Of a stretch of 64,000 nt of DNA, positions 25,039 to 48,739 are shown in pieces (the stretch's first letter is position 1; every line of letters begins with the position of its first letter). The notes beneath the pieces are model-generated. The model did not search any database. It was given only the letters and a program-made list of their open reading frames with translations, and was not told the origin of the DNA. Position numbers and translations under genes: made by a program. This stretch comes from Streptomyces hygroscopicus (lineage in GTDB: Bacteria; Actinomycetota; Actinomycetes; Streptomycetales; Streptomycetaceae), in assembly GCA_002021875.1 (NCBI GenBank), contig CP018627.1, positions 8,308,001-8,372,000 of the forward strand. Reading direction: 5' to 3'.

Positions 25039-26064
<1,026 letters not shown>

Positions 26065-28733: not shown

Positions 28734-28764
28734 GGCGGCGCCGTCATCCCTTGACGGCGCCGCC
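28734..28764. terminator. Bidirectional terminator overlapping the permease stop
   Basis: Thirteen-base perfect arms GGCGGCGCCGTCA (28734-28746) and TGACGGCGCCGCC (28752-28764) have a 5-base loop. It contains the stop codon of the leftward permease gene and lies 37 bases after the rightward gene ending at 28697. Confidence 0.85.
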
Positions 28765-29637
28765 CAGGGCGAAGCCGCCGCCCAGGCGGCGGGAGATCAG
28801 GACGTAGAGCAGCAGCACGGGCGTCGAGTAGAGGATCGAGAAGGCGGCCAGCTGGCCGTAGACGACCTGGCCGTAGTTGCCGAAGAAGGTGAAGATCGAG
28901 ACGGACGCGGGGAGTTGTTCGGGGGAGAGCAGCAGCATGAAGGGGACGAAGAAGTTTCCCCACATCATGATGAAGCTGTAGATCATCACCACCGTGATGC
29001 CCGGGCCCATCAGCGGCAGGATGACCCGGGTCAGGCTCTGCAGCCAGGACGCGCCGTCGGTCCAGGCGGCCTCTTCGAGGATCACCGGCACGCCGTCCAT
29101 GAAGTTCTTCATCAGCCAGACGGCGAAGGGGAGTTGGGAGGCGGAGAGGAAGAGCGCCGTGCCGGACATGGTGTCGATGAGGTCCACTTGGACGAAGAGT
29201 CCGTAGACCGGAACCATGATCGCGGTGATCGGCAGACAGGTGGTGAAGAGCACCGTCAGCAGATACGGGCGTACGACGCGGGAGCGGAAGCGGGAGAGGG
29301 GATAGGCGGCCAGCGCGGCGCAGGCGACGGTCAGGATGGTGGCGCCGCCGCACAGGAGCAGGCTGTTGAGCATCGGCGTGAAGGTGATCTCGTCCGTCCA
29401 CACCGCCGAGAAGTTGTCCAGCGTGGGCGAGCCGGGTGCCGAGACCCGCAGGGTGGCGTCGCTGTCGATGGAGGCCAGGACCAGCCAGGCGAGCGGGAGC
29501 AGGAACGCGGCCGCGATGAGCAGCAGCGCGGCGTCGGCGGCCAGTCGGCGGCGTCGGCTCGGGGACCAGCGGGGGCGCGGGCGGGATGTGGCGGAGCCGG
29601 GCCATGGGCGGGCGGGGCGGGCGGAGAGCGTGGACAA
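28744..29637 (-). CDS. Carbohydrate ABC transporter permease, MalG type
   Basis: The 297-residue membrane protein has six predicted helices and a cytoplasmic basic N-terminus. The EAA loop (about residue 187, EEAAWTDGASWLQSL) contacts the ATPase. It is a CUT1-family permease that should pair with a MalF-type partner and a binding protein, but neither adjoins it. The only candidates in this window are 16.8 kb away (46427-48739), on the same strand and in the right order. It starts at a TTG behind AGGAGG. A GTAACCGGTTGC palindrome about 55 bases upstream resembles a LacI-family operator. No ATPase gene is present; Streptomyces commonly shares MsiK. Confidence 0.88.
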   Translation of the reverse strand: MSTLSARPARPWPGSATSRPRPRWSPSRRRRLAADAALLLIAAAFLLPLAWLVLASIDSDATLRVSAPGSPTLDNFSAVWTDEITFTPMLNSLLLCGGATILTVACAALAAYPLSRFRSRVVRPYLLTVLFTTCLPITAIMVPVYGLFVQVDLIDTMSGTALFLSASQLPFAVWLMKNFMDGVPVILEEAAWTDGASWLQSLTRVILPLMGPGITVVMIYSFIMMWGNFFVPFMLLLSPEQLPASVSIFTFFGNYGQVVYGQLAAFSILYSTPVLLLYVLISRRLGGGFALGGAVKG

Positions 29638-29740
29638 CCTCGGACCTCCTCGCGCGCTTGCGAGCGCAGTCGATCAGCGTGCCGTCCATGTAACCGGTTG
29701 CCACTCGCGTTGGGGAAGACGCGTGCGCGGTTCGCTCGCC

Positions 29741-29805
29741 TTACGGCGTCGGCTTACGGCGTCGGCTTACGGAGTGGGCTTACGGCGTCGCCTTACGGCG
29801 TCGGC
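29741..29805. repeat. Five-copy 13-base tandem repeat
   Basis: The unit TTACGGCGTCGGC occurs five times head to tail; copies three and four carry substitutions. The last copy (29793-29805) supplies the stop codon and last codons of the LytR-CpsA-Psr gene read on the other strand. The array sits at the left edge of the segment that splits the sugar transporter. Confidence 0.9.
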
Positions 29806-31046
29806 GGGGCGATGTCCACCGGCTGGTCGTTCCGCAACTGGTCGAAGAGGCGCCTCGCCTGCGTCACGTTCCACTGCACGGCGCTGCCCTTGGAGGTCCG
29901 GAGGTTGGGGTTGGCCACCGGGACGTTGAGCTGCCGGCCGTCGCCCGAGGTGACGCCCTTCATCGCCTCGAACAGGGACATCAGGTTCCGCAGGCCCATG
30001 TCCTTGTCCACGATGAGCGTGTCCAGGCCCGCGCGTACGGTCGGGAAGGCCGCGAACGGGTTGGCCAGGACGCCCGGTGTGGCGGCCTTGTCGGCGAGGG
30101 CGGCCAGGAACTTCTGCTGGTTCTGGGTGCGGCCCAGGTCGCCCTTGGCCTCCTGCTTGCGCTGGCGGACGAAGGCGAGCGCCTTGGCGCCGTCGAGGGT
30201 GTGGCAGCCCTTCTGCAGGTCCAGCCCGGACTTGGGGTCCTTGATGTCGCGGTCCACGCACATCCGTACCCCGCCGACCGCGTCCACGACGTCCACGAAT
30301 CCGGAGAAGCCGATCTCCGCGTAGTGGTCGATGCGCAGCCCCGTGTTGCGCTCGATGGTCGAGACGAGGAGATCGGGGCCGCCCATCGAGTACGCCGCGT
30401 TCAGCTTGTTCTGGGACGGGGCGAAGGTCTTGCCGGTGTCGGGGCGGAGGAACCCCGGGATGGTCACCCAGGAGTCGCGCGGCAGGCTCATCATCGTGGT
30501 GCCGTTGGAGCCGGTGTGCAGCACCATCATCGAGTCGGTGCGGCGGCCCTCGGCCGAGCCGGTGCGCAGGTTCTTCCTGGCCTGTTCGGAGAGGCCCTCC
30601 CGGCTGTCGGAGCCCACGATGAGGTAGTTGGTGCCCTTGCCGGGCGGTGGGCGGTCCGGTGATTTGCCGAGGTCGACCTCGCGGTTGAGCTGGGTGTCGG
30701 CCCAGACGTAGGCGCTGCCGGAGGCCAGGAGCAGCGCGGAGACGGTCACGATGGCCAGCCGGATGATCCGGCGGCGCCGACTGAGGGGTTCCTTGGGGGC
30801 GCGGCGCCGGACGGTGGGGGTGGGGGTGGGTTCGGGTTCGGGTGTGGGGGTGAGTGTGGGAGCGCTGACGGTCTCCTCGCCCCTGCGGTAGGGGGCGGGT
30901 TTCGTCGGGACGCCGGGGGTTCCCTGCGCGGGCATGCTCTGGGTGGTCCCCTGCACGGGGATGCTCTGCGTCTCCGCCGTGGAGATGTCCCAGGCCCGCC
31001 CCGACGGCCGGTTCGCGGCGGCCCACCCGTCCAACCGATCGCTCAT
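29793..31046 (-). CDS. LytR-CpsA-Psr (LCP) family wall-polymer ligase
   Basis: LCP proteins transfer lipid-linked glycopolymers to peptidoglycan outside the membrane. The 417-residue protein has a cytoplasmic proline/threonine-rich region (about 1-90), a membrane helix (about 94-112, IRLAIVTVSALLLASGSAY) and an LCP domain with NYLIVGSDSREG, RTDSMMVLH, SLPRDSWV and NKLNAAYSMGGP, including the usual arginine and aspartate residues. I start at the ATG at 31046 (MSDRLDGW). Its last residues PTP and stop fall in a tandem repeat. The neighbouring glycosyltransferase suggests a cell-surface polymer role. Confidence 0.92.
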   Translation of the reverse strand: MSDRLDGWAAANRPSGRAWDISTAETQSIPVQGTTQSMPAQGTPGVPTKPAPYRRGEETVSAPTLTPTPEPEPTPTPTVRRRAPKEPLSRRRRIIRLAIVTVSALLLASGSAYVWADTQLNREVDLGKSPDRPPPGKGTNYLIVGSDSREGLSEQARKNLRTGSAEGRRTDSMMVLHTGSNGTTMMSLPRDSWVTIPGFLRPDTGKTFAPSQNKLNAAYSMGGPDLLVSTIERNTGLRIDHYAEIGFSGFVDVVDAVGGVRMCVDRDIKDPKSGLDLQKGCHTLDGAKALAFVRQRKQEAKGDLGRTQNQQKFLAALADKAATPGVLANPFAAFPTVRAGLDTLIVDKDMGLRNLMSLFEAMKGVTSGDGRQLNVPVANPNLRTSKGSAVQWNVTQARRLFDQLRNDQPVDIAPPTP

Positions 31047-31150
31047 GGGCGCAGTCTGCCCAGCGGCCGGAGGGGCCCGCCGTCGCTTCATAGAGCTATG
31101 ACAACTTCGGCGCTGCGTTGAACGCGGAGGTGGTCCCCATCCGTCAGGTC

Positions 31151-31206
31151 GTCGGTGCCGTCACGTCGGTGCCGTCACGTCGGTGCCGTCACGTCGATGC
31201 CGTCAC
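31151..31206. repeat. Four-copy 14-base tandem repeat
   Basis: The unit GTCGGTGCCGTCAC occurs four times at 31151-31206, the last copy with one change, followed by a degenerate fifth. The stop codon of the glycosyltransferase gene (31203-31205, other strand) lies in the fourth copy. Confidence 0.9.
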
Positions 31207-33347
31207 TTCGATGTCAGGCTCCGGTACGCGGGCGCCTCGCCCAGCGCCTGGGCGGCCGTCCCCGAGCGCTGGATGCGGTGCCACCGCAGCCGCGTCCCGA
31301 GCAGGAGGGCGACCACGGACTGGATGACCACCAGATACATCAGTTGCCGGTAGACGAAGAGCTGGAAGGGCAGGGACCACAGCGCCCGCATCCGCTCACC
31401 GTCCAGCCGCAGCGCGTATCCGGCGCAGACCATCTGGATCGCGAGATAGCCGAGCCACACCCCGGCCGCCTGCCCCGGGTCGAGGAAGAGCGCACCGTAC
31501 AGGGCGAAGAGGTCGATCACGGGCGCCAGCAGCGGCAGCAGCACCTGGAAGAGGGTGAGATAGCTGAGCCCCCGGCGGCCGAACCGCCCCACCGAGCCCA
31601 GGGAGACCACCGCGCGGCGGTGCTTCCACATGGCCTGGAGGGTGCCGTATCCCCAGCGGTAGCGCTGGCGCCAGAGCTGGCGCAGGGAGGTGGGCACCTC
31701 GGTCCAGGCGACGGCGGTCTCCTCGTACACGACCCGCCAGCCGGCCCGCCACAGCGCCATGGTGAGGTCGGTGTCCTCGGCGAGGGTGTCCTCGCTGACG
31801 CCGCCGACGCCCATGAGCGCGTCCCGCCGGAAGGCCCCGATGGCGCCGGGCACGGTCGGCATGCACTCCAGCACCTCGAACATCCGCCGGTCGAGGTTGA
31901 AGCCGAAGACGTACTCCAGATGCTGCCACCGGCCCAGCAGGCTGCGCCGGTTGCCGACCTTGGTGTTGCCGCTGACGGCGCCGATGGCCGGATGGGCGAG
32001 GGGCTGGATGAGCTGGTGGACGGCGTCCGGTTCGAAGACGGTGTCGGCGTCGACCATCACCACGATGTCGTGCCGGGTGTGGGCCAGCCCGGTGTTGAGG
32101 GCGGCGGCCTTGCCCGCGTTGGGCTGGCGGACCACCAGCACCCGGGGGTCGTTGACGCTCGCGGCGATATCGACCGTACGGTCCGTCGACCCGTCGTCGA
32201 TCACGACGATCTGCAGGCGCTGATGGGTGGAGGCGAGCAGCGAACGGATGGTGGCCTCGATGCCCGCCTCCTCGTTGTACGCGGGGATGAGCACCGTCAC
32301 CGGCTCGTTGACCTCCCGCAGCCAGGGCGCGCCGGGCCGGAAGCGGGTGAGCCGCCGGACATGGGTGCGGGCGAACAGCACGAGCATCAGCAGCCGCAGC
32401 ACCCCCAGCGCCCCCGCGATCCCCAGCACCCAGGTCATGGTGGACACGAAGCCGCGGCCGATGGCCGCGACCCAGATCAGCGCCTTGCCCTCCCAGCGCT
32501 CGAGGTCGGAGACCGGCACGTCGACCGGGGGCACGCCGAGCCCGCCGGTCACGGTGGTGAACTTCTTCGCCCGCGGGTCCTTCAGCAGCTTCTCGGTCTC
32601 CTGGTACGCGGTGTCGGTCTGGCTGAACTGCCGGACCACGCCCTGCGCGGGCTTCTTGGCCGACCGGTCGGCGGCCACCAGCGCGTACCCCTCCTCGGCG
32701 ACCCGCCGCGCGGCCTGCCACTCGTCGCCGCACAGCGTGTCCACATCGGTGGTCAGCGGCAGCCGCAGCAGCCTCGGCTGGACCCCCACCGAGCCCGCCA
32801 GCGCCGACTCGGTGAGGGACAGCTCCATCCGGGAGCGGGTGGGAGAGGCGGTGCCCATGTCGGCGCCGGTGTAGGTGTTCGACCCGATCTCATGGCCCTC
32901 GGCGCGGATCCGGCGTACGAGATCCGGGTACTGGGCCGCCTTGGCGCCGGAGACGAAGAACGTGGCCCGCGCGTCGTACCGGCGCAGCAGGTCCAGCAGG
33001 CGCGGGGTCTGGACGGGGTCGGGCCCGCCGTCGTAGGTGAGCGCGACCGTTCCGGCGGGCATGCCCACGGTCCGCACCTGATCGCCGTTGATCTGCACCA
33101 CCGGCCCGCCGTCGGCCAGCGCCCGGGGCACTGGGCTGGTGCAGGGCCGCCGCGCCTTCGCCGCGTCGACCTCGTGGGTGGTCCAGCCCTGGAACATCAG
33201 CAGGCCGAACATGACGGGAAGGACGAGGAGCAGAAGCAGCCAGTGCGCGCGCGGGTCGCGGGACCGCTTGTGCCGTCCTCCTCGGGACAAGTGGCTGGAT
33301 TCCTGGCGTTTTTTCGACCGGTTGCCCTCAAACATGGTTGGTCGCAC
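31203..33347 (-). CDS. Polysaccharide deacetylase-like / family 2 glycosyltransferase fusion
   Basis: The 714-residue membrane protein has an N-terminal anchor (about 36-55), an extracytoplasmic NodB-type domain (about 95-265), a membrane helix (about 300-325) and a processive GT2 domain (about 345-580), then C-terminal helices. GT2 motifs are intact: LIPAYNEE, DDGSTD near 384, DADT near 431, EDTDL near 522 and QRYRW near 564. The deacetylase part looks degenerate: TYDGGPD replaces TFDDGP, and the zinc-histidine motif reads GSNTYTG. It should polymerise a sugar chain, perhaps chitin- or hyaluronan-like. The start is a GTG at 33347, with an ATG at 33335 as the alternative. Confidence 0.9.
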   Translation of the reverse strand: MRPTMFEGNRSKKRQESSHLSRGGRHKRSRDPRAHWLLLLLVLPVMFGLLMFQGWTTHEVDAAKARRPCTSPVPRALADGGPVVQINGDQVRTVGMPAGTVALTYDGGPDPVQTPRLLDLLRRYDARATFFVSGAKAAQYPDLVRRIRAEGHEIGSNTYTGADMGTASPTRSRMELSLTESALAGSVGVQPRLLRLPLTTDVDTLCGDEWQAARRVAEEGYALVAADRSAKKPAQGVVRQFSQTDTAYQETEKLLKDPRAKKFTTVTGGLGVPPVDVPVSDLERWEGKALIWVAAIGRGFVSTMTWVLGIAGALGVLRLLMLVLFARTHVRRLTRFRPGAPWLREVNEPVTVLIPAYNEEAGIEATIRSLLASTHQRLQIVVIDDGSTDRTVDIAASVNDPRVLVVRQPNAGKAAALNTGLAHTRHDIVVMVDADTVFEPDAVHQLIQPLAHPAIGAVSGNTKVGNRRSLLGRWQHLEYVFGFNLDRRMFEVLECMPTVPGAIGAFRRDALMGVGGVSEDTLAEDTDLTMALWRAGWRVVYEETAVAWTEVPTSLRQLWRQRYRWGYGTLQAMWKHRRAVVSLGSVGRFGRRGLSYLTLFQVLLPLLAPVIDLFALYGALFLDPGQAAGVWLGYLAIQMVCAGYALRLDGERMRALWSLPFQLFVYRQLMYLVVIQSVVALLLGTRLRWHRIQRSGTAAQALGEAPAYRSLTSK

Positions 33348-33492
33348 GGTAGTTGCGGGGCGCGGAGCGGGTCCGGTGATGCAGCGCGAATGGATAAGAA
33401 TTCCCGGGTCGCCGCCCGCCGCGCGGCCGGATCACGTAATGCACACGCGGAAGCGGCCACCTCCGCGAGGCGGCTCTGCTTGACTGACGCCC

Positions 33493-34278
33493 ATGACCTC
33501 TGCCGATGCGTCCGTCTTCGAGACCACCAGGCCCGCGTCCGCCGACTACCTCACCCGGTTCGCCGCGAGCGACGCCGGGCGCGACTACAAGGCGCGGATG
33601 CTGGACGCGCTCGACCTCCGGGCCGGGCTGACCGTCCTCGACGCGGGCTGCGGCCCCGGTGCCGATCTCCCCGCCCTCGCGGAGGCGGTCGCCCCCGGCG
33701 GTACGGTCATCGGGATCGACCGCGACCAGGAGATGCTGGACGGGGCGGCGGCGCGCACCGCCGCACATCCGTGCGTCGAGCTGCGGCGCGGCGATGTCCA
33801 CGCCCTCCCCCTGGACGACGCCGCGGTGGACCGCGCCCGCACCGACCGGGTGCTGCAGCATGTGGACGACCCGGCCCGCGCCCTCGCCGAGTTCCACCGG
33901 GTCCTGCGGCCGGGCGGGCGGCTGGTGATGGGCGAGCCCGACTGGGACACCCTCGCCGTCGACCACCCCCACTCGTCGCTCTCCCGCGCCTACACCCGCC
34001 ACATCACCGAGCAGGTGATCCGCAACGCCGCCATCGGCCGCCAGCTCGCCCGTCTCGCCACCGACGCCGGGTTCCGCGTGCCGGAGGTCATTCCGGTCAC
34101 CCAGGTCTTCCGCGATGTCCGCGCGGCGGACCGGGTCTTCGGATTCGAGCGCACCACCCGCCGCGCCGTCGAGGCCGGTTACCTCAGCGAGTACCAGGCG
34201 GGCGTCTGGCTGCACCACCTCGCCCACCGCCCGTTCTTCGCCTCGGCGACGCTGTACGTGGTGGTGGCGGAGGCGTAG
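33493..34278 (+). CDS. SAM-dependent methyltransferase
   Basis: The 261-residue class I methyltransferase has the SAM-binding motif VLDAGCGPGADL at about residue 48, acidic IGIDRD after strand 2, and LRPGGRLVMGEPDW after strand 5, typical of the UbiE/Methyltransf_11 type. The substrate is unknown. It converges with the monooxygenase gene 17 bases downstream. A stand-alone methyltransferase next to a hydroxylase suggests modification of a small aromatic or polyketide molecule; that is inference. Confidence 0.88.
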   Translation: MTSADASVFETTRPASADYLTRFAASDAGRDYKARMLDALDLRAGLTVLDAGCGPGADLPALAEAVAPGGTVIGIDRDQEMLDGAAARTAAHPCVELRRGDVHALPLDDAAVDRARTDRVLQHVDDPARALAEFHRVLRPGGRLVMGEPDWDTLAVDHPHSSLSRAYTRHITEQVIRNAAIGRQLARLATDAGFRVPEVIPVTQVFRDVRAADRVFGFERTTRRAVEAGYLSEYQAGVWLHHLAHRPFFASATLYVVVAEA

Positions 34279-34295
34279 CCGGTCGTGCCGCGGTC

Positions 34296-35750
34296 TCAGG
34301 CGGGCCTGAACCAGGTGGCCAGCGCCTCGTGCAGACCGTCGCCCGTCGTGCCCTGCCAGGCGACGTAGCAGTCCGGCCGGAGGAGCAGGGCGGTGTCGAG
34401 GCCGGGGGCGGGCACGGTGTCGACGTGCGCCGCCCAGGGGCCCGGGTCGAGGGTGGCGGTGGGGTCCAGGAGGAGGGGGCGGGCGGTGCGGGTCAGGTCG
34501 CGCAGGCCCGGCAGGTCCGGGGCCCAGTGGCCGACGAGCGGGCCGGTCGCCGGGCCCATGTCGTAGGTGATGTCCGCGCCGGCGAGCAGCCCCGCGATGT
34601 GTCGCCGGGTCGCGGGCCGGCCGAGCAGTTCGCCGAACAGCTCGCGCAGCGCCGTCACCTCGCCGCCCGGCCGGATCAGCAGCGACTGCGCCTGCGTGTG
34701 CATCGCGACCCGCCGCGCCGCCGGGTGCCGTTCCGACTCGTACGTGTCCAGCAGCCCCTCCGCCGCGTGGCCGCGCACCGCCGCCGCCAGCTTCCAGCCG
34801 AGGTTGACCGCGTCCTGGAGGCCCAGGTTGAGTCCCGGGCCGCCGATCGCCGAGTGCACATGCGCGGCGTCGCCGAGCAGCAGGACACGGCCCGCGCGGT
34901 AGCGCTCGGCGATCCGGGTGTTGCCGCCGAACAGCCGCCGCATCAGATGCGGTCCCGGCCCGGTCGGCGGGTCGAGGGTGACGTCCGCGCCGAGCACCCG
35001 GCGGGCGCTGGCCCGCAGTTCGTCGAGCGATGCCTCGCCCTCTTCCGGCTGCCCCCATTCCACGGTGGTCAGCTTCGGGTCACCGTCCGGTGAAGGCGCC
35101 CAGGCGATCAGTCCGCGCTCGGTCCGCAGATGCTGGAACGGCGGGATGGCGCCGAAGCCGGGCACGGTGAGGCTGCCGTCCGGACCGATCAAGTGTGCGG
35201 GCACGCCCACATGTCCGGTGCGCGACACCGAGTCGTCGCTGGTCACGCCGGGGAAGTCGATGCCGGTGAGCTTGCGGACCGTGCTGCGCCCGCCGTCCGC
35301 GCCGACCAGGAACTCCGCCTCGATCGGGCCCTGTTCGCGCAGCTCGATGCTCACCGACTTCTCGCCCTGCGTCAGCCCGATGACCTCGTGCCCGCGCCGG
35401 ATGTCGACACCAAGCTCCGCCGCGCGCTCGGTGAGCATCCGCTCGATCCGGAGCTGCGGCACGAGGAGTGTGTAGAGCGGGTTGTCCGGCAGATCGCTCA
35501 GATCGAGCGGGAACGCGCCGAACGTGAAACGGGGCGCCGGACTGGGCGTGGTGCCGGGCGCGGCCAGCCGCTCGTACAGCCCGCGCCGGTCGAGCATGCG
35601 GATGACCTGGCCCACGAGGCCGTTCGCACGCTGCGTGTCGGTTGGTTCGGTGAGGCGTTCCAGGACGACCGGGCGCACACCGGCCAGGGCGAGTTCGCAG
35701 GCGAGCATCAGGCCGTTGGGCCCCGCGCCTGCGATGACGACCTCGATCAT
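34296..35750 (-). CDS. FAD-dependent aromatic monooxygenase (rifampicin-monooxygenase-like)
   Basis: The 484-residue flavoprotein of the PheA/TfdB hydroxylase group has all three FAD/NADPH motifs: GAGPNG at residues 8-13, GADGGRSTVR near 149 and LLGDAAHVHSAIGGPGLN near 290. The overall pattern (MIEVVIAGAGPNGLMLACELALAG opening, split by its glycines, and PTDTQRANGL) reminds me of Rox enzymes that inactivate rifamycins, but tailoring enzymes look alike. A TetR gene 24 bases upstream, same strand, probably regulates it. C-terminal thioredoxin-like tail present. Confidence 0.87.
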   Translation of the reverse strand: MIEVVIAGAGPNGLMLACELALAGVRPVVLERLTEPTDTQRANGLVGQVIRMLDRRGLYERLAAPGTTPSPAPRFTFGAFPLDLSDLPDNPLYTLLVPQLRIERMLTERAAELGVDIRRGHEVIGLTQGEKSVSIELREQGPIEAEFLVGADGGRSTVRKLTGIDFPGVTSDDSVSRTGHVGVPAHLIGPDGSLTVPGFGAIPPFQHLRTERGLIAWAPSPDGDPKLTTVEWGQPEEGEASLDELRASARRVLGADVTLDPPTGPGPHLMRRLFGGNTRIAERYRAGRVLLLGDAAHVHSAIGGPGLNLGLQDAVNLGWKLAAAVRGHAAEGLLDTYESERHPAARRVAMHTQAQSLLIRPGGEVTALRELFGELLGRPATRRHIAGLLAGADITYDMGPATGPLVGHWAPDLPGLRDLTRTARPLLLDPTATLDPGPWAAHVDTVPAPGLDTALLLRPDCYVAWQGTTGDGLHEALATWFRPA

Positions 35751-35774
35751 GAATTCCCTTTCGGGGGAGGGGAG

Positions 35775-36392
35775 TTAGGGGTTTTGCTCGGTGGAGAGCC
35801 CCGCCGCGAACCGGGCCAGGGCCTCCGTGAGCAGGCGGCGCACCGGCACGGGTGGGTCGGTGCGGAGATGGTGGGCGATGGCGGTCTGTACGGCGGCCAC
35901 CACCGCTGACGCCACGAGGTGCGGGTACAGGTCCTGATTGAGGTCACCGCCGGTTCGTTCGGCGATCGCCGCCGTGATCTCGGCCTCGGCGGTCGCCCCG
36001 GCGCGCAGCATCTCGCCCCGCAGCGCCGGTTCGGCGACCATCACGCGCACACCCGCCGTCCACTGCGCCGCGTCGGTGGCGGGGGGATGGGCCATCGACT
36101 CCGCGTCCGCCGCGAACTGCAGCAGTACGGAGTCGGTGATCGCGTCCCACAGCGGCTCATCCGGCCGTTCGCGCAGCGCCTCCGCGATGCGCAGGAAGCG
36201 GTCGAGGTGGCGGAACGCGATCGCCTCGGCCTTGCTCGAGAAGTAGTTGTTGAACGTACGCGGCGAGACACCGGCCGCCTCGGCGATGTCCTCCACCTTG
36301 ACCTTGTCGAACCCGCGCTCCACGGTCAGCCGGATCGCGGCCCAGCTCAGTGCCGCGTGCGTCTGGGCCTTCTTGCGCTCTCGCAGTCCCAT
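35775..36392 (-). CDS. TetR family regulator of the monooxygenase
   Basis: The 205-residue regulator has a TetR helix-turn-helix (about 12-55: VEDIAEAAGVSPRTFNNYF, then SSKAEAIAF). It is the first gene of a two-gene operon with the monooxygenase, 24 bases apart. I place the start at the ATG at 36392 (MGLRERKK); the upstream extension reads through the AT-rich operator region. TetR-monooxygenase pairs often respond to the monooxygenase substrate. Confidence 0.9.
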   Translation of the reverse strand: MGLRERKKAQTHAALSWAAIRLTVERGFDKVKVEDIAEAAGVSPRTFNNYFSSKAEAIAFRHLDRFLRIAEALRERPDEPLWDAITDSVLLQFAADAESMAHPPATDAAQWTAGVRVMVAEPALRGEMLRAGATAEAEITAAIAERTGGDLNQDLYPHLVASAVVAAVQTAIAHHLRTDPPVPVRRLLTEALARFAAGLSTEQNP

Positions 36393-36407
36393 GCGATGAG
36401 AGTAGCA

Positions 36408-36437
36408 ATTTTTGCGTGCCCCGCAAATGTGCGGGGC
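36408..36437. promoter_or_regulatory. Overlapping inverted repeats upstream of the TetR gene
   Basis: TTTTTGCG and CGCAAATG arms around TGCCC (36408-36430) make an imperfect operator-like repeat. It overlaps a perfect GCCCCGCA/TGCGGGGC stem-loop (36418-36425 and 36430-36437, loop AATG). One is probably the TetR operator and the other a terminator of the gene at 36453; they share bases. Confidence 0.5.
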
Positions 36438-36452
36438 CCGCACTTTTTTCGA

Positions 36453-36905
36453 TTAGGGTTCGGTTGATGACGCTGCCAGGTCCAGCTCGGCCCAGATCTC
36501 CTTGCCAACGGTTCGCTCGCGCACGCCCCAACGCGCGGCGAGGGCGCGGACGATGAGCAGGCCACGGCCGTGCTTGTCGCGGGGCGACGGATGGCGGGGC
36601 CGGGGGAGCCGCTCGCCCCGGGGGTCGGATACGGCGATACGTAAGCGGGTTTTGCTGAGGGTGAGCTGAACCCGGAAGAGTCGCCCGGGGATGCGGGCGT
36701 GCCGAATGGCGTTGGTGGCCAGCTCGGACACGATCAGCGCGGTGTCGTCGGCGAGTGCGGGGTGGCCCCACTCGGCGACGAGTCGCGTGGCGTGCTGGCG
36801 GGCCCTGGTCACGCTTATCGGTGTCGGGACGTAGTCGACGCGGCCCTCTTCGATGACGGGGTCGCTGGGGTCCGGGATCCGGGGGTCTTGGGGCGCGAAT
36901 GCCAT
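36453..36905 (-). CDS. ATP-binding protein, anti-sigma-kinase-like (HATPase_c_2)
   Basis: The 150-residue cytoplasmic protein has the GHKL ATPase motifs: VSELATNAIRHA (N box) near residue 63, VSDPRGERLP (G1) near 93, and KHGRGLLIVRALAARWGV (G2) near 111. This small, single-domain kinase group resembles RsbW/SpoIIAB and is very numerous in Streptomyces. It is commonly linked to HTH-DUF5753 and DUF397 genes, as here, where it is divergent from them. No partner sigma factor is proven; the nearby ECF gene is not a usual target. Confidence 0.87.
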   Translation of the reverse strand: MAFAPQDPRIPDPSDPVIEEGRVDYVPTPISVTRARQHATRLVAEWGHPALADDTALIVSELATNAIRHARIPGRLFRVQLTLSKTRLRIAVSDPRGERLPRPRHPSPRDKHGRGLLIVRALAARWGVRERTVGKEIWAELDLAASSTEP

Positions 36906-37098
36906 CGCGTACCTCCAGTGGGCAGGGCAGGGCGGAGCGAGTCCGCCAACTGACGTCCCTGTGCGAGCGGTTCATCACGGACCGTAGCCCCGTGGCGCTG
37001 ATCAGTTCAACTCCACTGAGGAAAATTCAACCGATCTCGCTTGCGGGGTGCTTCGCTACGCTCCAGACTGGCGTCACATCACGGAGGAGAGATTCACG

Positions 37099-37980: not shown

Positions 37981-37983
37981 GCT

Positions 37984-38181: not shown

Positions 38182-38226
38182 CGCGCGTCACCGGAACTCG
38201 CCCCTCCTCCCGGTCAGCCAACACAC

Positions 38227-39941: not shown

Positions 39942-39942
39942 C

Positions 39943-40197
39943 ATGCGGGTGACATGGCGGCATAGGGCGTCGATGGCCTCCATCGCGGCGATAACCGTCC
40001 TGCTGGCCGCGGGAGTGATGGCGGGGGCCGCACTCGCGGCCCCCGGGTCCGGCCTCGGCGTGCGAACGGAAGGCGCGGCCACCGGCGCCGGGTCCGCCGT
40101 ACCACCACACGGTTCACCGGGGATCTCGGACAGGGCGGCGGAGCAGACGAGCATCGAGAAGGCCGTGCCACGCCAGACGTTGGCGAAGGACCAGTAG
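39943..40197 (+). pseudogene. Chimeric small reading frame made of copied DNA
   Basis: The frame could encode 84 residues with a signal-like helix (ASIAAITVLLAAGVMAGAAL) but has no family match I know. Bases 40000-40087 match 46201-46288 (79 of 88), and bases 40119-40191 match 46748-46820 (71 of 73, inside the MalF permease gene, opposite strand). The stretch between the two matches is 31 bases here but 459 there. It is best read as a deleted duplicate rather than a normal gene. It may still be translated from the sigma operon, as it starts 1 base after the preceding stop. Confidence 0.65.
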
Positions 40198-40247
40198 GCG
40201 ACACTCCGCGACTGGGGCGATCGTCCCCATGTCGCGGAGCCGCTGAC

Positions 40248-42629: not shown

Positions 42630-42650
42630 TTCGGAGCTCTCCCCAGAGTC

Positions 42651-43262
42651 TCAGCCTCGATCGCCGACGACTTCCCGCTCGACATAGGAAGTGATGTCTT
42701 CCCCGGCGGCGAAGAGGTCGGCGATGAACCGCTCCCACCGCTCAACAGACGCTGGGTCGGTGAACCGGATCGCGCCCCTCGGCACGCTCTCCTCTGTGTA
42801 CATCACCTGGTAGAGGACGCGCCCGCCCAGAACCACCAACTCCGGCAATGGCTGCTCGCCCTCGAGATGGCTGACGGCCGCTGCGGGAACAACTCGGACC
42901 GGCCCGCCGTTCTCCGAGCGTACCCGGAGCGAACGCAATTCCCATTGCACATAAGGCGTGAGCGGCTGCTCCGTGATCCGGACGCGATGGAAGACCGAAC
43001 CACGGGAGGCGGCCTCTTCCGCCGCTTCTCGGAGAGCCTGAGCCTCGTCTTTCAAAAGCCGCTCAGCCTCCGCCAGATCGCCTCGGTAGAACGCGTTCCA
43101 GCTCGGGCTGTTGCTCTCCTTGAAATACTGCTTCCGTTCCAGCTTCCAGGAGTCGCGGTTACGCGTCTGCTCGTAGTGCAGGTCGAAGTCATCCAAATAG
43201 TCATCGAGTTCCAGCCAGTCGCCCTGTGCGGGGTCGAGTGGGGGAACCGGGATGTCATGCAT
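42651..43262 (-). CDS. DUF6879 family protein
   Basis: This 203-residue protein has the conserved YLDDFDLHYEQTRNRDSWKLE stretch (interrupted here by one residue for length), FHRVRITEQPLTPYVQWEL and VMYTEES..RGAIRFTD pattern of DUF6879. I start at the ATG at 43262, whose bases overlap the upstream stop codon. The family is widespread in Streptomyces, typically next to a small ADP-like hypothetical gene and an HTH/STAND gene. No catalytic residues are evident. Confidence 0.82.
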   Translation of the reverse strand: MHDIPVPPLDPAQGDWLELDDYLDDFDLHYEQTRNRDSWKLERKQYFKESNSPSWNAFYRGDLAEAERLLKDEAQALREAAEEAASRGSVFHRVRITEQPLTPYVQWELRSLRVRSENGGPVRVVPAAAVSHLEGEQPLPELVVLGGRVLYQVMYTEESVPRGAIRFTDPASVERWERFIADLFAAGEDITSYVEREVVGDRG

Positions 43263-43521
43263 CGGGGATGTCCTTCTTCGCGTGGCTGAGCACGTTGCCG
43301 GGGATGACGACAAGCCTCTCCCCGATGCCCAGTGCGACCCCTTCCGGGAGTCGCGTTTCGTAGGTCTCGGTAAGGTCTTGTCCGATGACGGCCACGTCAC
43401 CGTTGCTGAGTCGCCAGATGTCGGGACAGGTTCTGTTGTCGGCGCAGTCGGGATCCCGCTCTTGGGGTGACTGCCCCAGGCGCCTGTCGAATAACGCTGA
43501 CGGATCCGCCTGCCATGCCAT
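43255..43521 (-). CDS. Small hypothetical partner of the DUF6879 protein
   Basis: The 88-residue protein has a recognisable DIWRLSNGDVAVIGQDLT core seen beside DUF6879 genes in many streptomycetes. The start is the ATG at 43521 (MAWQADPS) after a GAGG-rich site; a longer frame to 43590 has no support. It overlaps the DUF6879 gene by 8 bases and heads a three-gene set with the STAND protein. The function is unknown. Confidence 0.7.
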   Translation of the reverse strand: MAWQADPSALFDRRLGQSPQERDPDCADNRTCPDIWRLSNGDVAVIGQDLTETYETRLPEGVALGIGERLVVIPGNVLSHAKKDIPDA

Positions 43522-43645
43522 CGTCCTCGCCCCCTCCAGCCCTTCGGCAAAGGGCGTATGCGAGCCAACATACTGCCGCCCGGCTTGCACGGGGGAGGAG
43601 GATGAGGGTCTGTATTGAGCCGAATGACCGAGTTGGTCATCGCGC

Positions 43646-44030
43646 CTACTTGCCGAACCGCGCGATCGCTTCCAGGACCGCGCCCCGCATCGTAGGGCTG
43701 CCCGTGTGCCCCGAGTCGTCGATCACCTTCAGCTCCGCGTCCGGCCAGATCTTGGACAGCTCCCACGCGGTCTTCAGCGGACTGCCCAGGTCGAGTCGTC
43801 CGTGGATCAGAACTGCGGGGATGCCGGACAGCCGGTGCGCGTCACGGAGGAGTTGTCCGTCCTCGAGCCACGCGTCATGGGCGAAGTAGTGCGCGCGGAT
43901 ACGGACCGAGGCCATTAGTGCGTCGTCGGACTTGTCGCTGTAGTAGCCAGGGCTGCCAAGTACCTCGTGGGCGATGACGGCGTCCTCCCAGGCGCACCAG
44001 TCCTGCGCCGCGACGTCTCCTGATTCGTCC
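43646..44030 (-). pseudogene. C-terminal remnant of a proline iminopeptidase
   Basis: Translation on the minus strand gives the last ~125 residues of a prolyl aminopeptidase: CAWEDAVIAHE, RIRAHYFAHDAWLEDGQLL, IPAVLIHGRLDLGSPLKTA, and the catalytic-end IDDSGHTGSP containing the histidine. The N-terminal two thirds, with the nucleophile serine (GGSWG), is missing: upstream the match stops at about 44005-44030, where sequence of a different gene on the other strand begins. It is therefore a truncated pseudogene. The aspartate (GRLD) and histidine (SGH) are still there. Confidence 0.8.
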
Positions 44031-44158
44031 TCAGCCCCAACGAAGCCCCGGTCATCAGCGCCAACGGGCGCTACGTCGCGTTCGAGTCCTGGCGGGACGA
44101 CCTGGTCCCAGGGGACACCAACGAGGCACAGGACATCTTCGTCCACACCCGCTGGTAG
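44024..44158 (+). pseudogene. C-terminal remnant of a WD40-like (PD40) repeat protein
   Basis: The plus strand reads FVLSPNEAPVISANGRYVAFE and SWRDDLVPGDTNEAQDIFVHTRW, then stop: the final blade of a PD40 beta-propeller. A stop lies directly upstream (44021-44023), and the rest of the gene is absent. It abuts the iminopeptidase remnant end to end at 44005-44030, marking a recombination or deletion junction. Confidence 0.7.
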
Positions 44159-44193
44159 GGCTTCGCCAGGGCTCAGGCGGCCCCGCCGCCCGG

Positions 44194-45099
44194 CTATGTG
44201 TTCAGCAGGGCCTTGAAGCGAGCCGCGCCATGGTGGGTCAGCCAGTCCCCGAAGGTGAGCAGGCCGGGGTGGAGAGCGCGCAGGGGCTCGATGTCGACCA
44301 AGGGGTAGATGCCGTCGTTGAGGGACTGGATGCCGCGGGCCGCCTCCTCGCTCTGGGCGCGTACGGCGTCGAGGGGGATGTGGACGTACGGGACCTCCTG
44401 GCCCGTGGCCCGGCTGATGGCGGCGGCGGTCTCCGGTGGGGTGAGGGTGTCGCCCGCCAGGTCGAAGGCGCGGGAGCGGAAGCGGCCGGGGTCGTCGAAG
44501 GCGAGGGCGGCGAAGGCCGCGATGTCGGACAGCGCGATGAACTGCTGGCGGGTGTCCGGATTGTACGGGGTGGCCAGGGCGCCGCCGCGCAGACCCCATA
44601 CGGGGTGGAGGAGGTTTTCCATGAAGGACGTGGGGCGCAGGACGGTCGCGGGCACGCCGATCGCGCCGATGTGCTCCTCGATGCGCCGCTTGCTCTCCAG
44701 CGTCGACAGCCCGCTGTCAGCGTCGGCGCCGAACGCCGAGGCGTAGACGAGGAGTTGAGCCCCGGCGGCCTGCGCGGCGTCCGCCACGTTCCTGCCCCGC
44801 CGTACCTCGTCGTCCGGTCCGTATTCCGCGGGCAGGCCCGGCATGCCGGGGGTGGGCTGGACGCTGAAGACACCGTGGGCTCCGCGGGCCGCGGCGTCGA
44901 GCGAGGCGCGGTCGTCCAGATCGCCCGCGACCAATTCGGCGCCCGCCGAGGCGAGGGCGACTGCCGCGGGGCTGGTGGTGTCCCGGGTGAGCGCGCGTAC
45001 ATGGTGGCCGTCGGCGAGCAGTCGCCTCGCGGTGGCGCCGCCCTGCTGACCGGTCGCGCCGGTCACCAGGATGATTCGTTTCGACGTCATGGGGGTCAT
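44194..45099 (-). CDS. NmrA-like NAD(P)-binding protein
   Basis: The 301-residue atypical short-chain dehydrogenase has the nucleotide motif LVTGATGQQGGATARRL near residue 10, then VAGDLDD, and a substrate part ending in LHPGLLTFGDWL. NmrA-like proteins bind NAD(P) and often act as redox sensors or reductases. It is divergent from a TetR gene, with an operator-like palindrome between them, a common reductase/TetR arrangement. The active-site Tyr/Lys of classical SDRs is not evident. Confidence 0.88.
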   Translation of the reverse strand: MTPMTSKRIILVTGATGQQGGATARRLLADGHHVRALTRDTTSPAAVALASAGAELVAGDLDDRASLDAAARGAHGVFSVQPTPGMPGLPAEYGPDDEVRRGRNVADAAQAAGAQLLVYASAFGADADSGLSTLESKRRIEEHIGAIGVPATVLRPTSFMENLLHPVWGLRGGALATPYNPDTRQQFIALSDIAAFAALAFDDPGRFRSRAFDLAGDTLTPPETAAAISRATGQEVPYVHIPLDAVRAQSEEAARGIQSLNDGIYPLVDIEPLRALHPGLLTFGDWLTHHGAARFKALLNT

Positions 45100-45130
45100 A
45101 GCGGAAGGCTCCCGAGTAGAATCGGAACGA

Positions 45131-45144
45131 GTAACCCGGTTAAC
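45131..45144. promoter_or_regulatory. Operator-like palindrome between NmrA and TetR genes
   Basis: GTAACC-C-GGTTAAC is a near-perfect inverted repeat in the 103-base divergent promoter region, plausible for the adjacent TetR protein. Confidence 0.5.
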
Positions 45145-45202
45145 GTACCGGAACGGCTGACCCGCTTGTCAATCAGCCCGCTTGTCGATCAGGGAGACGG
45201 AG

Positions 45203-46039
45203 ATGGTGAGGGAAGCGGCGCGCGGCGCGGCAGAGGGCGAAGGGCCGCCTCAGGAAGGGCTGTCCCCGGCTGGGTTGCCTCCGGAAGGGCTGCCCTCGCG
45301 GGCCGACGCGCGGCGGAACAGGGCGCGGGTACTGGCCGCGGCCAGGGCCTCGTTCGCGGCGGAGGGCAGCATGGCGCCGCTCGGTGCCATCGCCGAGCGG
45401 GCCGGGGTGGGCGCCGGGACGGTGTACCGCCACTTCCCCTCCAAGGAGGACCTTTTCGAAGCGGTGATCGCCGACAGCGTGGAGGGGTTCGTCGCCGAGG
45501 GGCGGGCGTTGGCCGTGGCCGAGGACCCGGGGGCGGCGTTCTTCGGTTTCCTGGAGCGCGTGGTCAGGGAGGCGTCGCTCAACCGTGCGCTGTGCGAAGC
45601 CTTCGCCCGGGAGGCACCCGGCCGTTCGCCCGATGTGGCGGCGGCCGGTGCCCGGCACGAGTTCGGTGACGTGCTGAGTGTGCTGCTCCGGCGCTCCCAG
45701 GAGGCCGGAGCGGTCAGGGCGGATGTCGAAGCGGCGGACGTACAGGCGCTGGTGGCGGGGTGCGCGGCCATGGAGCAGGGGCGGGGCCCCGGGTCCGGGG
45801 TGCTGACGGCGGTGATGTGCGACGGATTGCGGGCGGAACAAGCCGTAACGAAATTCCGTAACGGAATGGAGGAGGCTGGCGACGGAGCCGCCGGTCCGCG
45901 TGGCGAAATCGGTCGGTGCGAGATGTGCGGTGGCCCGCTGCCCGGCGACGGCGCCGGCCGCGCGGGCCGCCCCGCGCGGTTCTGCGGGGCGGCGTGCAGG
46001 CAGAAGGCCCACCGGCGGCGCACGCGCGCCAGTGGCTGA
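45203..46039 (+). CDS. TetR regulator with C-terminal cysteine cluster
   Basis: The 278-residue protein has a TetR DNA-binding region (about 36-85: APLGAIAERAGVGAGTVYRHF) and a ligand domain to about 220. A further segment follows with CEMCGGPLP and RFCGAACRQKAHRRR (about 239-275). The four cysteines look like a zinc ribbon; I would not expect it on a TetR protein. The ATG at 45203 follows AGGGAG. It is divergent from the NmrA-like gene. Whether the extra domain reflects a gene fusion needs family comparison. Confidence 0.85.
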   Translation: MVREAARGAAEGEGPPQEGLSPAGLPPEGLPSRADARRNRARVLAAARASFAAEGSMAPLGAIAERAGVGAGTVYRHFPSKEDLFEAVIADSVEGFVAEGRALAVAEDPGAAFFGFLERVVREASLNRALCEAFAREAPGRSPDVAAAGARHEFGDVLSVLLRRSQEAGAVRADVEAADVQALVAGCAAMEQGRGPGSGVLTAVMCDGLRAEQAVTKFRNGMEEAGDGAAGPRGEIGRCEMCGGPLPGDGAGRAGRPARFCGAACRQKAHRRRTRASG

Positions 46040-46426
46040 CCGCCTGCCCGTGACCGAACGAACGCGGCGGCGACTGGGTGACGTACGTCATGGGAACGTG
46101 GCCGTCCCCGCGGTCAGTTGAGGGTGTGATCACAGACAGGGACATCAGCCCGGCGGCGGGCACTGGACCGTCGACGAGCGCCACGGCGGCGGTGTGCGCC
46201 CTGCTGGTCGCGGCGGTGCTGACGGGGGCCGCGCTCGCGGCCCCCGGGTCCGGCCTCGGCGTGCGGACGGAAGGCGTAGCCACCGGCGTGGGAGCCGCCA
46301 CGGGGGTGGGAGCCCCCACCGGTGTGGAAACCGCCACCGGTGTGGAAACCGCCCCTGGGGACCCGGCCGGGTCCATCACCCCGGCGGGGTTCGGGGCGGA
46401 GTGCGGGGCGGAGTTCAGAGTGGGGT
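46040..46426. other. Gene-free stretch at the right edge of the island, source of the copied DNA
   Basis: A frame from 46078 (or the GTG at 46127) could encode a protein with a signal-like helix and alternating Gly-Val/Thr-rich repeats, but I do not accept it as a gene: it runs into the MalF gene on the other strand. It contains a GGGGGCCGC/GCGGCCCCC stem-loop (46224-46245), which may end transcription of the permease gene, and an 18-base unit ACCGGTGTGGAAACCGCC twice in tandem (46318-46353). Bases 46201-46288 recur at 40000-40087. Confidence 0.6.
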
Positions 46427-47344
46427 TCAGACCTCCTCGCGCATCAGCCTCAGGTACACCATCGAGAACAGGGCTCCCACCAGCAGCAACAGCAGCGCCA
46501 CTGCCGTGCCGTAGCCGATGAGGGACTTGTTGAACGCCTGGTCGTACATGAAGACCGGGAGCGTCTGGCTGCGGTTTCCCGGGCCGCCCCGGGTCATCGC
46601 CCAGATGAGGCCGAACACCGACAGCGTCTGCAGGGTGTTCAGCATCAGATTGGTGCCGATGGAGCGGCGGATCATCGGCAGGGTGATGTGCCAGAAGCGG
46701 CGGAAGCCGCCCGCGCCGTCGACCTCCGCCGCCTCGGTGATCTCCTTGGGGATCTCGGACAGGGCGGCGGAGTAGACGAGCATCGAGAAGGCCGTGCCGC
46801 GCCAGACGTTGGCGAAGGACACGGCGAGGATGGGCAGGGTGTAGAGCCAGTTCTGGGACGGCAGGCCCAGCCAGTCCAGCAGCGCGTTGAGCGTGCCCTC
46901 GCGGCGGAAGAACGCGTACAGCAGGAAGCCCGCCACGATCTCGGGGACGACCCAGGCCGCGATGACGATCGCGCCGGTCAGTGTCCGCACCGGCCGGGAG
47001 GCGCGCTGCATCAGGGCGGCGAGGGCCAGGCCCAGGGTGTTCTGGCCGACGAGGGAGGAGAGCAGGGTGAAGACGAGGGTGAGGACGACGGCGTTGCGGA
47101 AGTCGTCGTCCCCGAAGGCGCGCTGGAAGTTGTCCAGCCCCACGAAGTCCGTGGAGGACGCGCCCGTGAGCTGCATATTGGTGAAGGCGATATAGACGCA
47201 GTACGCGATGGGGCCACCGAGGAAGAGCAGCAGCATGACGGTGGCGGGGGCGAGCGGAAGCCAGCGCAGGGGGCGGCCGCGACGGGGGCCCGGCCGGGCC
47301 GGGGTGTCCGTCGGGGCCGCCGCCACTTTGGTCGCGGTTGCCAT
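46427..47344 (-). CDS. Carbohydrate ABC transporter permease, MalF type
   Basis: This 305-residue inner-membrane subunit of a CUT1-type sugar importer has six predicted helices and an EAA loop near residue 203 (EAAEVDGAGGFRRFWHITLP interrupted only by normal variation). It follows the binding-lipoprotein gene by 12 bases. The MalG-type partner expected directly downstream is missing here and is found at 28744-29637. Part of its coding sequence (46748-46820) is duplicated at 40119-40191. Confidence 0.9.
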   Translation of the reverse strand: MATATKVAAAPTDTPARPGPRRGRPLRWLPLAPATVMLLLFLGGPIAYCVYIAFTNMQLTGASSTDFVGLDNFQRAFGDDDFRNAVVLTLVFTLLSSLVGQNTLGLALAALMQRASRPVRTLTGAIVIAAWVVPEIVAGFLLYAFFRREGTLNALLDWLGLPSQNWLYTLPILAVSFANVWRGTAFSMLVYSAALSEIPKEITEAAEVDGAGGFRRFWHITLPMIRRSIGTNLMLNTLQTLSVFGLIWAMTRGGPGNRSQTLPVFMYDQAFNKSLIGYGTAVALLLLLVGALFSMVYLRLMREEV

Positions 47345-47356
47345 CGGGGGCGGCCC

Positions 47357-48739
47357 TCAGCCCTGGCCGCTCGCCGCCACCGTGGCGCCGTCGGCGATCG
47401 ATTTGAGCTGGTCGTCGTAGGACTTCGCGGCCTTCTCCGGTGAGGAGCCGCCGGCCGTCGCCGCCTCCATGGCCTCGCCGATCGCCGTGGACACCTGGGG
47501 ATAGACGGGGGTGGTGGGGCGGTAGTGGGTGTACTTCACCAGGCCCGTGAAGAAGGTGATCCCGGGCATGGAGGAGGTGTACTTCGGGTCCTGCGCGACG
47601 TCCTTGCGGACCGCGATCTGGGCGTCGACGATGTCCCAGGTGACCGCGTTGTCCTTGGTCTGGAGCTGCTGGATGAACTTCCAGGCCAGATCGGGGTTCT
47701 TGGACTTCGCGGTGATCGCCCACGTCCAGCCGCCGGACATGCTGACCTGGCCGGGCGCCTGCCCGTTCTGGGTGGGCATCGGGGCCTGGCCGAGGGTCTT
47801 GGACCACTCGGGCCAGGGCTTGCCGCCGGTCTTCAGCCAGTTCTGGCCCAGCCAGGAGCCGTCGAGGGCGATGGCCAGCTTGCCCTCGGGGAGCCATTCG
47901 CTGAAGACGGTCGTGCCGACGTTGGGATCGAGGGCGTCGGAGATGTCCGGGCCGAGTTTCTCGGAGTAGACGGTCCGGAGGAAGCCCAGGGCGTCCTGGA
48001 AGCCCTTGCCGCCGGTGACCCACTTCTTGGCGTCGGGGTCGTAGAGCGGGTTTCCGCCCGCCTCGCCCGTGCCGTACAGCAGCATCTCGAAGCTCTGCAT
48101 CACGGAGGTCTCGCCCGGGGCCTTGCCGGTGTAGGTGTTGAGCGGGGTGACGCCGGGGACCTTCTGCTTGATCGTGCGCGCCGCCTTGAGGATGTCGTCC
48201 CAGTTCTTGGGCGACCAGTCGGCCGGCAGCCCGGCCTTGGCAAAGATCTTCTTGTTGAACCAGAGGCCACGGGTGTCGGTGCCGTCCGGGACGCCGTACG
48301 TCTTGCCGTCCTCGGCCTTGGCCGCCGTCTTCGCGGTGTCGACGAACTGGTCCCAGGTCTTCCACTTGGCCAGATAGTCGTCGAGGGGGCGCAGATAGCC
48401 CGCCTTGATGTCCGAGTTGATCCGGAAGGTGTCCTCGTAGACCAGGTCGGGGGCGGTCTTGGGGGACCGCATCATCTGCTGGACCTTGGTGGCGTAGTCG
48501 TTGTCCTGCGCCTGGATCGGGATCAGCTTGACCTTCTTGCCGGGGTTGGCCTTCTCGAACTGCTTCTTCACCTCGGCCAGATGGTTGTCCTTGAAGCGGA
48601 TCTTGTTGTCCGTGGAGCGGTTGTAGACGACCTTGACGGTGTCCGGGTCGCTGCCCGAACCGCCACCGCAGGATGTGAGTCCTGCGGTGGCGGCGAGGGT
48701 GGCGGCGAGGATCAGTGGGGCGGTGGGGCGCACGGGCAC
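47357..48739 (-). CDS. Sugar-binding lipoprotein of an ABC transporter
   Basis: The 460-residue extracellular solute-binding protein (family 1) has a lipoprotein signal ending in LTSC near residue 23, then a mature bilobal domain with NPGKKVKLIPIQAQDNDYAT, GKLAIALDGSWLGQNW and the hinge pattern of this family. It delivers a sugar, identity unknown, to the permeases. It is the first gene of the transporter operon on this strand. A plausible promoter lies upstream (TTGACC at 48798-48803 and TACGGT, spacer 18, minus strand). No ATPase gene is nearby, consistent with use of MsiK. Confidence 0.92.
   Translation of the reverse strand: MPVRPTAPLILAATLAATAGLTSCGGGSGSDPDTVKVVYNRSTDNKIRFKDNHLAEVKKQFEKANPGKKVKLIPIQAQDNDYATKVQQMMRSPKTAPDLVYEDTFRINSDIKAGYLRPLDDYLAKWKTWDQFVDTAKTAAKAEDGKTYGVPDGTDTRGLWFNKKIFAKAGLPADWSPKNWDDILKAARTIKQKVPGVTPLNTYTGKAPGETSVMQSFEMLLYGTGEAGGNPLYDPDAKKWVTGGKGFQDALGFLRTVYSEKLGPDISDALDPNVGTTVFSEWLPEGKLAIALDGSWLGQNWLKTGGKPWPEWSKTLGQAPMPTQNGQAPGQVSMSGGWTWAITAKSKNPDLAWKFIQQLQTKDNAVTWDIVDAQIAVRKDVAQDPKYTSSMPGITFFTGLVKYTHYRPTTPVYPQVSTAIGEAMEAATAGGSSPEKAAKSYDDQLKSIADGATVAASGQG

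Follow-up and report, generated by a model that had tools for sequence, protein, structure and literature searches.

Why should a three-gene sugar-import operon of a streptomycete keep one of its two permease genes 16.8 kb away from the other? The question is raised by a window of 64,000 nucleotides from Streptomyces hygroscopicus (8.31-8.37 Mb of the single 12.0-Mb contig CP018627.1), in which open reading frames (ORFs) and Pfam matches give a minus-strand gene order of SBP (sugar-binding lipoprotein), malF, 16.8 kb of other DNA and malG:

47357-48739, minus strand: SBP, sugar-binding lipoprotein, operon gene 1 (PF01547, SBP_bac_1, E 2.6e-35)
46427-47344, minus strand: malF-type permease (PF00528, BPD_transp_1, E 2.8e-16)
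29736-46426, genes on both strands: inserted variable region (cargo); most of the genus sample has malF next to malG, and the contents vary by species
28744-29637, minus strand: malG-type permease, intact, with a TTG start (PF00528, BPD_transp_1, E 2.5e-12)

An earlier reading of this DNA, made without database searches (the sequence-only reading), had placed the lipoprotein and both permeases on one strand in operon order, with 16.8 kb between malG and malF; positions, strand, Pfam families and coordinates all agree. We consider it about two-thirds probable (roughly 0.66) that an intra-operon junction, malF-malG, is a recurrent hotspot for accessory genes, which enter by way of homologous recombination in the flanking genes.

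Relatives were compared in three sets: 60 inspected by eye at the outset for their malF and malG coordinates, 80 named malF loci picked for likeness to the malF of the window, and a genus sample of 200 genomes, with malG matched in 96 and malF in 96 at E <= 1e-90. Genes were scored as adjacent when on the same strand and no more than 300 bp apart, and some genomes carry a second, paralogous operon. Of the 97 same-contig malF-malG pairs in the genus sample, 86 are adjacent (median distance 24 bp over all 97) and the other 11 are 3.5-29.8 kb apart, one of them on opposite strands; four malF rows were left unpaired, two with the genes on different contigs (G193 and G120) and two with no malG match beside them. 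Since all 12 outgroup loci, from Nonomuraea, Sphaerisporangium and Actinocatenispora, are adjacent, adjacency was taken as ancestral. The earlier expectation that the permeases lie together elsewhere is thus borne out by most of the genus sample and by every outgroup locus: the two genes were once adjacent and were then parted by incoming DNA. The host genome held one match each to the window MalG and MalF at E <= 1e-40, in a search that scored 39 of 120 (MalG) and 38 of 118 (MalF) first-look candidates, so no second close copy was seen. No published account of the split was recognised among the top-ranked literature matches.

The simplest explanation, and the one first proposed for this DNA, is a single 16.8-kb island that the ancestor of this strain acquired in one insertion. 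It accords with the adjacency seen in most of the genus sample, and some close relatives do share many of the same genes: among gene clusters (40% identity, genes from a simple codon-score ORF caller), those in common with the window number 15/19 for S. endocoffeicus, 10/20 for S. iranensis and 5/16 for S. hygroscopicus. The figure is 0/20 for S465, and NEAU-Y11 has none. The sequence-only reading had asked whether relatives also hold these permeases apart with the same genes between; close relatives do hold them apart, yet with different genes. Across 14 complete inserts of the window's clade, each flanked by malF and malG, 198 genes form 107 clusters, 76 of them confined to one species and none present in all 14, the commonest being an XRE-DUF5753 regulator and a HATPase (11/14 each) and a DUF397 protein (8/14). 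Insert size ranges from 2.1 to 29.8 kb among the split relatives. A second group of split genomes, clade B, yields 54 genes in 34 clusters from seven of its then ten inserts; three clusters are common to both clades and none is common with S. pathocidini. Pfam matches of selected insert genes, from the window and from relatives, point to metabolism and regulation. Two clade B modules (c21/c12) first taken for DUF5753 and HATPase proteins proved to be glyoxalase and CBS proteins. With all 18 clade rows of the tree below split, contents and sizes differing, four changes on that tree, and an internal malF scar recording at least one later insertion, a single island is very improbable.

The number of openings was read from a tree that combines SBP and MalF with the neighbouring u51415 and g54597 and comes from quick searches with SH-aLRT support only. 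With 96 rows in the tree, three changes are required to place the split label, two of them forced by starred (well-supported) branches alone, and the label falls in the window's clade (15/15 split, support 100), clade B (10/10, support 100) and S. pathocidini. With seven genomes added and four long-branch adjacent rows dropped (99 rows), four changes are needed, of which starred branches force three; the fourth arises because G105 groups with two adjacent species, at a support of 88 that is not starred. Here the window's clade (S. violaceusniger type) is 18/18 split and clade B, the streptoverticillium-type clade, 12/12. S. rugosispiralis is scored as split even though its two permease genes sit on separate contigs, with several kb of cargo on each. 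Change counts alone cannot separate gain from loss, and the splits are read as gains because the outgroups are adjacent. In three clade B genomes, ISL-11, S. albireticuli and G107, malG points the opposite way from malF, as if an inversion breakpoint lay at the malF-malG joint, and in S. olivoreticuli malG stands upstream of SBP on the same strand. The orientation of the glgB-type gene is likewise reversed in ISL-11, S. albireticuli and S. olivoreticuli.

Repeated opening might reflect no more than neutral gene-order decay in a large, plastic genome, the junction being no hotter than others and any scars incidental. The spacers flanking the operon vary too, exceeding 500 bp between malG and pfkA in 56 of 61 loci and between u51415 and SBP in 30 of 81, and excerpts of PMC6722414 describe indel hot spots in Streptomyces. 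Yet the other junction of the same operon, SBP-malF, is almost never open: 98 of 99 genus-sample pairs have it closed (two SBP rows unpaired), and it exceeds 500 bp in none of 98 loci; the sole open case, G233, has a 1.4-kb gap and an adjacent malG. Openings of 11/97 against 1/99 suggest that the malF-malG joint is hotter than others, although they amount to four independent events against one; we regard neutral decay as improbable.

The boundaries of the insert carry evidence of how it may have begun:

29640-29655, minus strand: near-copy of the last 16 bases of malF (15/16 nt, by sequence match), holding the ribosome-binding site of malG
29638-29720, minus strand: malG leader conserved in the clade (GTCTTCC...GGTTTCATG...), a candidate promoter; anchor GAGGAGGTCCGAGG in 18/18

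Many of 28 adjacent loci end malF in codons like ACG-GAG-GTC-TGA with the malG start a few bases on, so that the end of malF carries the ribosome-binding site of malG; the last 16 bases of the window malF (46427-46442) include AGGAGG. In the window's clade the sequence before malG reads GCGCGAGGAGGTCCGAGG-TTG, of which 15 of 16 bases match the malF tail GCGCGAGGAGGTCTGA. This 15/16 match recurs in 14 of 15 loci, the fifteenth, S. himastatinicus, lying outside the span searched and having its motif found in the leader alignment. Among 472 control gene starts none reached 15, one scored 14 and the remainder scored at most 12; the single 14 adjoins the own malF of G035, whose tail falls inside the searched span. 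The motif GAGGAGGTCCGAGG occurs exactly once in each of the 18 clade members, and mean pairwise leader identity, in successive 25-bp steps, is 88, 75, 70, 62 and 60% (shuffled, 56%), conservation ending some 75-100 bp upstream of malG and lying near background beyond. From these alignments, the end of malF appears to have been doubled across the gap. The proposed edges of 29640-29810 and 46040-46426 need adjusting: on the left, about 29638-29720 is conserved malG leader and not cargo, and on the right the edge is refined to the malF stop codon at 46427. In clade B the stretch preceding malG differs, most members having GGAGGTGCCATG, and the leaders of both clades may act as promoters. Upstream of SBP the alignment shows what we read as conserved promoter-like boxes, TTGACC-18 nt-TACGGT, and one 6-mer of the malG leader matches this region as its reverse complement. 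An operator or promoter motif shared by SBP and malG was looked for and not found, the candidate AACCGGTT upstream of malG not being conserved in the clade.

Inside the insert, two further pieces point to recombination within malF:

39968-40098, minus strand: scar part 1, former downstream flank of malF (82% to 46169-46299)
40119-40191, minus strand: scar part 2, 73-bp internal malF fragment (97% to malF 46748-46820)

These are the copied operon piece that the sequence-only reading had noticed, and the alignment upholds it. In NBRC 110028 and S. himastatinicus, the references for the comparison, malF is intact and is directly followed by c25 and then an ECF sigma gene. The malF fragment, flank, c25 and ECF sigma gene of the window are colinear with that order, and TetR, NmrA, a hydrolase remnant, DUF6879 and TPR genes now stand between the full malF and the fragment, old flank and c25. 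The colinearity thus marks the copied piece as, in all probability, the scar of a later insertion beside malF and not of the founding one. G102, the nearest tree row to the window, has a 34-bp malF piece beside c25 with TetR and NmrA genes in between, and the same NmrA-TetR block separates malF from c25 in the window, G102 and S. endocoffeicus. In G141 a 307-bp piece of the malF 3' end lies beside c25, 4.1 kb from the full gene. It is 98.4% identical to the malF tail of that genome, with four of the five differences in the last codons, where the full gene is of AAGGAAGAG type and the piece of CGCGAGGAG type (an allele switch). A single crossover in malF would produce this arrangement: the complete gene, then incoming DNA, then a copy lacking its 5' part next to the old neighbour. 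The G141 insert (L226:9180-13284) contains a stretch with a GC content of 0.55-0.58, against 0.65-0.79 in the surrounding 400-bp steps, and has partial blastn matches to plasmid records, the best 73% over a third; Pfam gave no match for six ORFs in it or for the neighbouring c25.

A mirror image of these scars occurs in clade B. In G018 a 56-bp piece (84%) comprising the ribosome-binding site, ATG and first codons of malG lies past the CBS genes, 0.9 kb before the full malG and with one gene in between, and in S. griseocarneus and S. triculaminicus malG directly follows the same CBS gene. The pattern of a 3'-truncated malG start is plain, and a crossover in malG may have produced it.

The chief competing explanation is that the 3' end of malF is a past or present attachment (att) site for integrative elements that bring the end of the gene with them, the elements having decayed and lost their integrases. 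Some phages integrate at protein-coding genes with a copied 3' end, such as e14 at icd. Such a site would account for the doubled end of malF and for separate lineages having been struck at one and the same gene end, with SBP-malF almost spared; the 16-bp near-copies at 29640-29655 and 46427-46442 can be read as end repeats, no longer end repeat being seen, and the G141 fragment with its true malF 3' end is the displaced piece expected. The search for recombinases tells against it. Profiles built from the recombinases of the host genome (16 PF00589 and 11 PF00239 matches at E <= 1e-5) and run on six-frame ORFs of 34 regions from 33 genomes found no tyrosine integrase at E <= 0.1, and the host island has no PF00589 or PF00239 match at E <= 1e-5, the nearest integrase being at 8,251,461. 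Two held-out resolvase loci were recovered, and so were three of four held-out integrases, these three at 1e-14 or better; the fourth integrase reached only 0.003, so weak integrases could be missed, and a long-lost or very divergent integrase at the locus is possible. A single serine resolvase, in S. milbemycinicus, and a single TnpB, in NBS 14/10, were all that the regions of relatives contributed.

As for the hallmarks of integrative and conjugative elements (ICEs), their actinomycete counterparts (AICEs) and prophages, the window island has no recombinase and its edges no tRNA target. ARAGORN found no tRNA at either edge, in keeping with what had been noted from the letters, and its sole call (52608-52697) lacks a readable anticodon; that call sits in very GC-rich DNA and is probably false. 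An Rfam scan of 24000-52000 gave zero matches. The scars also differ in length (34, 73 and 307 bp), and that of G018 lies in malG, not malF. We therefore hold a decayed att site to be unlikely.

A hotspot fed by recombination in the flanking genes would have arisen as follows. In the founder of the window's clade, DNA may have entered at the 3' end of malF and doubled its tail, the full malF staying with SBP and a short tail with the ribosome-binding site staying with malG. malG would then have gained its own conserved leader, probably a promoter. The gap would have become a tolerated harbour for XRE/DUF397/HATPase, GT2-LCP, FAD monooxygenase-TetR, DUF6879-TPR and other modules, and modules in the gap are indeed gained, lost and reordered among clade members. 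Some gains would have come through homology of the flanking genes, by crossover in malF (G141, G102 and the window) or, in clade B, in malG (G018).

Several observations weigh against this account. Part of the match between leader and tail would follow from the ribosome-binding core by itself; the tail duplication is not shown for clade B, S. pathocidini or G105, and clade B leaders share little beyond that core with malF tails. No promoter boxes are recognised in the malG leader, which shares zero conserved forward-strand 6-mers with the SBP promoter region. With four split events against one at SBP-malF, independent events are few, so that a preference for the malF-malG junction is not statistically shown. 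Scars of malF are known from three genomes and of malG from one, and a repeat search of 26 regions found no further malF-coding scar; the other repeats near genes were in S. hygroscopicus, NEAU-Y11, S. netropsis and I05A-00742, together with tandem CBS genes in two species. In the comparison of the window with G102, elevated malF divergence is confined to roughly the final 150 bp, and this pair therefore shows no long recombination tract.

A more speculative extension, which we put forward as doubtful, is that the ribosome-binding site of malG inside the end of malF makes a self-healing landing site: a doubled tail would let both genes survive and the operon be reopened, and intra-operon hotspots would arise, as a rule, where the tail of the upstream gene carries the downstream translation signal.

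The detached gene shows no sign of decay among the 24 relatives searched, its best match having no internal stop in any of them; its dN/dS ranges from 0.08 to 0.18 across six split pairs, against 0.05 to 0.16 across five adjacent ones. Judged by these ratios, malG is under purifying selection; as it is kept in this way, the pump presumably works as two transcription units. A three-gene operon has been opened several times at one joint and is still open in two clades; highly dissimilar genes have reused the gap, and malG has been retained. From the malF and malG scars one can read fairly directly how a hotspot without an integrase can grow, while the malG leader is a test case for how a detached operon gene regains expression.

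The remaining contents of the window insert are as follows:

29793-31091, minus strand: LytR-CpsA-Psr (LCP) protein (PF03816, E 2.7e-47)
31203-33347, minus strand: deacetylase and GT2 glycosyltransferase, paired with the LCP gene (PF01522, PF00535)
33493-34278, plus strand: S-adenosylmethionine (SAM) methyltransferase (PF08241)
34296-36443, minus strand: FAD monooxygenase and TetR module (PF01494, PF00440; each in 6/14 inserts)
36453-36905, minus strand: HATPase_c_2 protein (PF13581; 11/14 inserts), presumably AbaA-like
37048-37980, plus strand: XRE-DUF5753 regulator (PF13560, PF19054; 11/14 inserts), presumably WhiJ-like
37984-38181, plus strand: DUF397-type small protein of the same triplet, so labelled by co-clustering with an NBS 14/10 protein, itself the one scanned, that bears PF04149
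38227-39941, plus strand: ECF sigma factor (PF04542/PF08281) and its neighbour c25, which has no Pfam match in two relatives
40248-43766, minus strand: NB-ARC/TPR protein and DUF6879 protein (Pfam)
43646-44146, minus strand: alpha/beta-hydrolase gene remnant, 166 aa by our own ORF caller against 321-327 aa in five relatives
44194-46039, both strands: NmrA reductase (minus) and TetR/SbtR-like regulator (plus) (Pfam)

The hydrolase bears out an earlier mention of gene remnants, and tandem repeats, also mentioned, were found at 29736-29805, 31150-31210 and 46279-46353. The LCP gene, which adjoins malG in 7 of 14 clade inserts, had been considered as a second binding protein, a candidate rejected on its Pfam match. 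A plasmid of Kitasatospora cathayae carries a stretch like the DUF6879-TPR pair, annotated as DUF6879 and a hypothetical protein and matching at 67% over 54% of the query. PADLOC was run on ten insert proteins: the eight from the window gave a generic TPR model and one very weak match, both on the TPR protein, and in the two from relatives Cas12-like models matched the NBS 14/10 TnpB and IetS/subtilase models an S. endocoffeicus gene. The latter (L187:3877-7323) encodes an 1148-aa subtilase beside c25 and matches subtilase/IetS defence-system models. In S. samsunensis (L203:2180-7538) two MvdD-type ATP-grasp genes flank an XRE/HATPase pair, one of them followed by a PCMT-type methyltransferase, a set that we take to resemble graspetide modules for ribosomally synthesized and post-translationally modified peptides (RiPPs).

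Around the operon, pfkA lies beyond malG, with pta:

25039-26064: pfkA

Between pfkA and malG, 26197-28697 holds two plus-strand genes without a Pfam match, whose homologues occur, among the loci compared, only in those of the window's clade. Directly upstream of SBP, the ORF 48896-50272 has a sub-threshold GH18 match and is present in much of the clade; past SBP lie genes for a response regulator, a sensor kinase and a dicarboxylate symporter.

How does the locus compare with known systems? It has the gene set of a CUT1-type (MalFG family) sugar ATP-binding cassette (ABC) importer, an SBP_bac_1 protein and two BPD_transp_1 permeases, with no ATPase gene within the SBP-malF-malG operon, and the solved structural relatives of SBP bind various sugars; what sets it apart is the physical detachment of malG. 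A shared ATPase such as MsiK presumably serves it. We also take the DUF397, XRE-DUF5753 and HATPase_c_2 proteins, the most widely kept insert genes, to be equivalent to BldB/WhiJ/AbaA-type partners. They would be of similar kinds to the triplets of PMC10294661, but here the triplet is a cargo module of the gap and no more. As far as excerpts of Tidjani et al. 2019 (PMC6722414) go, the indel hot spots described there likewise place several gene sets at one syntenic position; those lie within one species, and the one in Fig. 3 contains ICE/AICE with direct repeats at a tRNA gene, whereas the malF-malG site was compared across the species of a clade and no tyrosine integrase was found. The hotspots of Oliveira (2017, PMC5635113), from the portion of that paper seen, share conserved flanks, high turnover, few mobile genes and evidence of recombination in flanking genes; according to the same portion, new genes rarely integrate inside operons, which are largely spared insertions. 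In contrast to those hotspots, the malF-malG site is intra-operonic and has visible truncated copies of its flanking genes. The kind of hotspot is thus already known; its location inside an operon is unusual, and its scars are visible.

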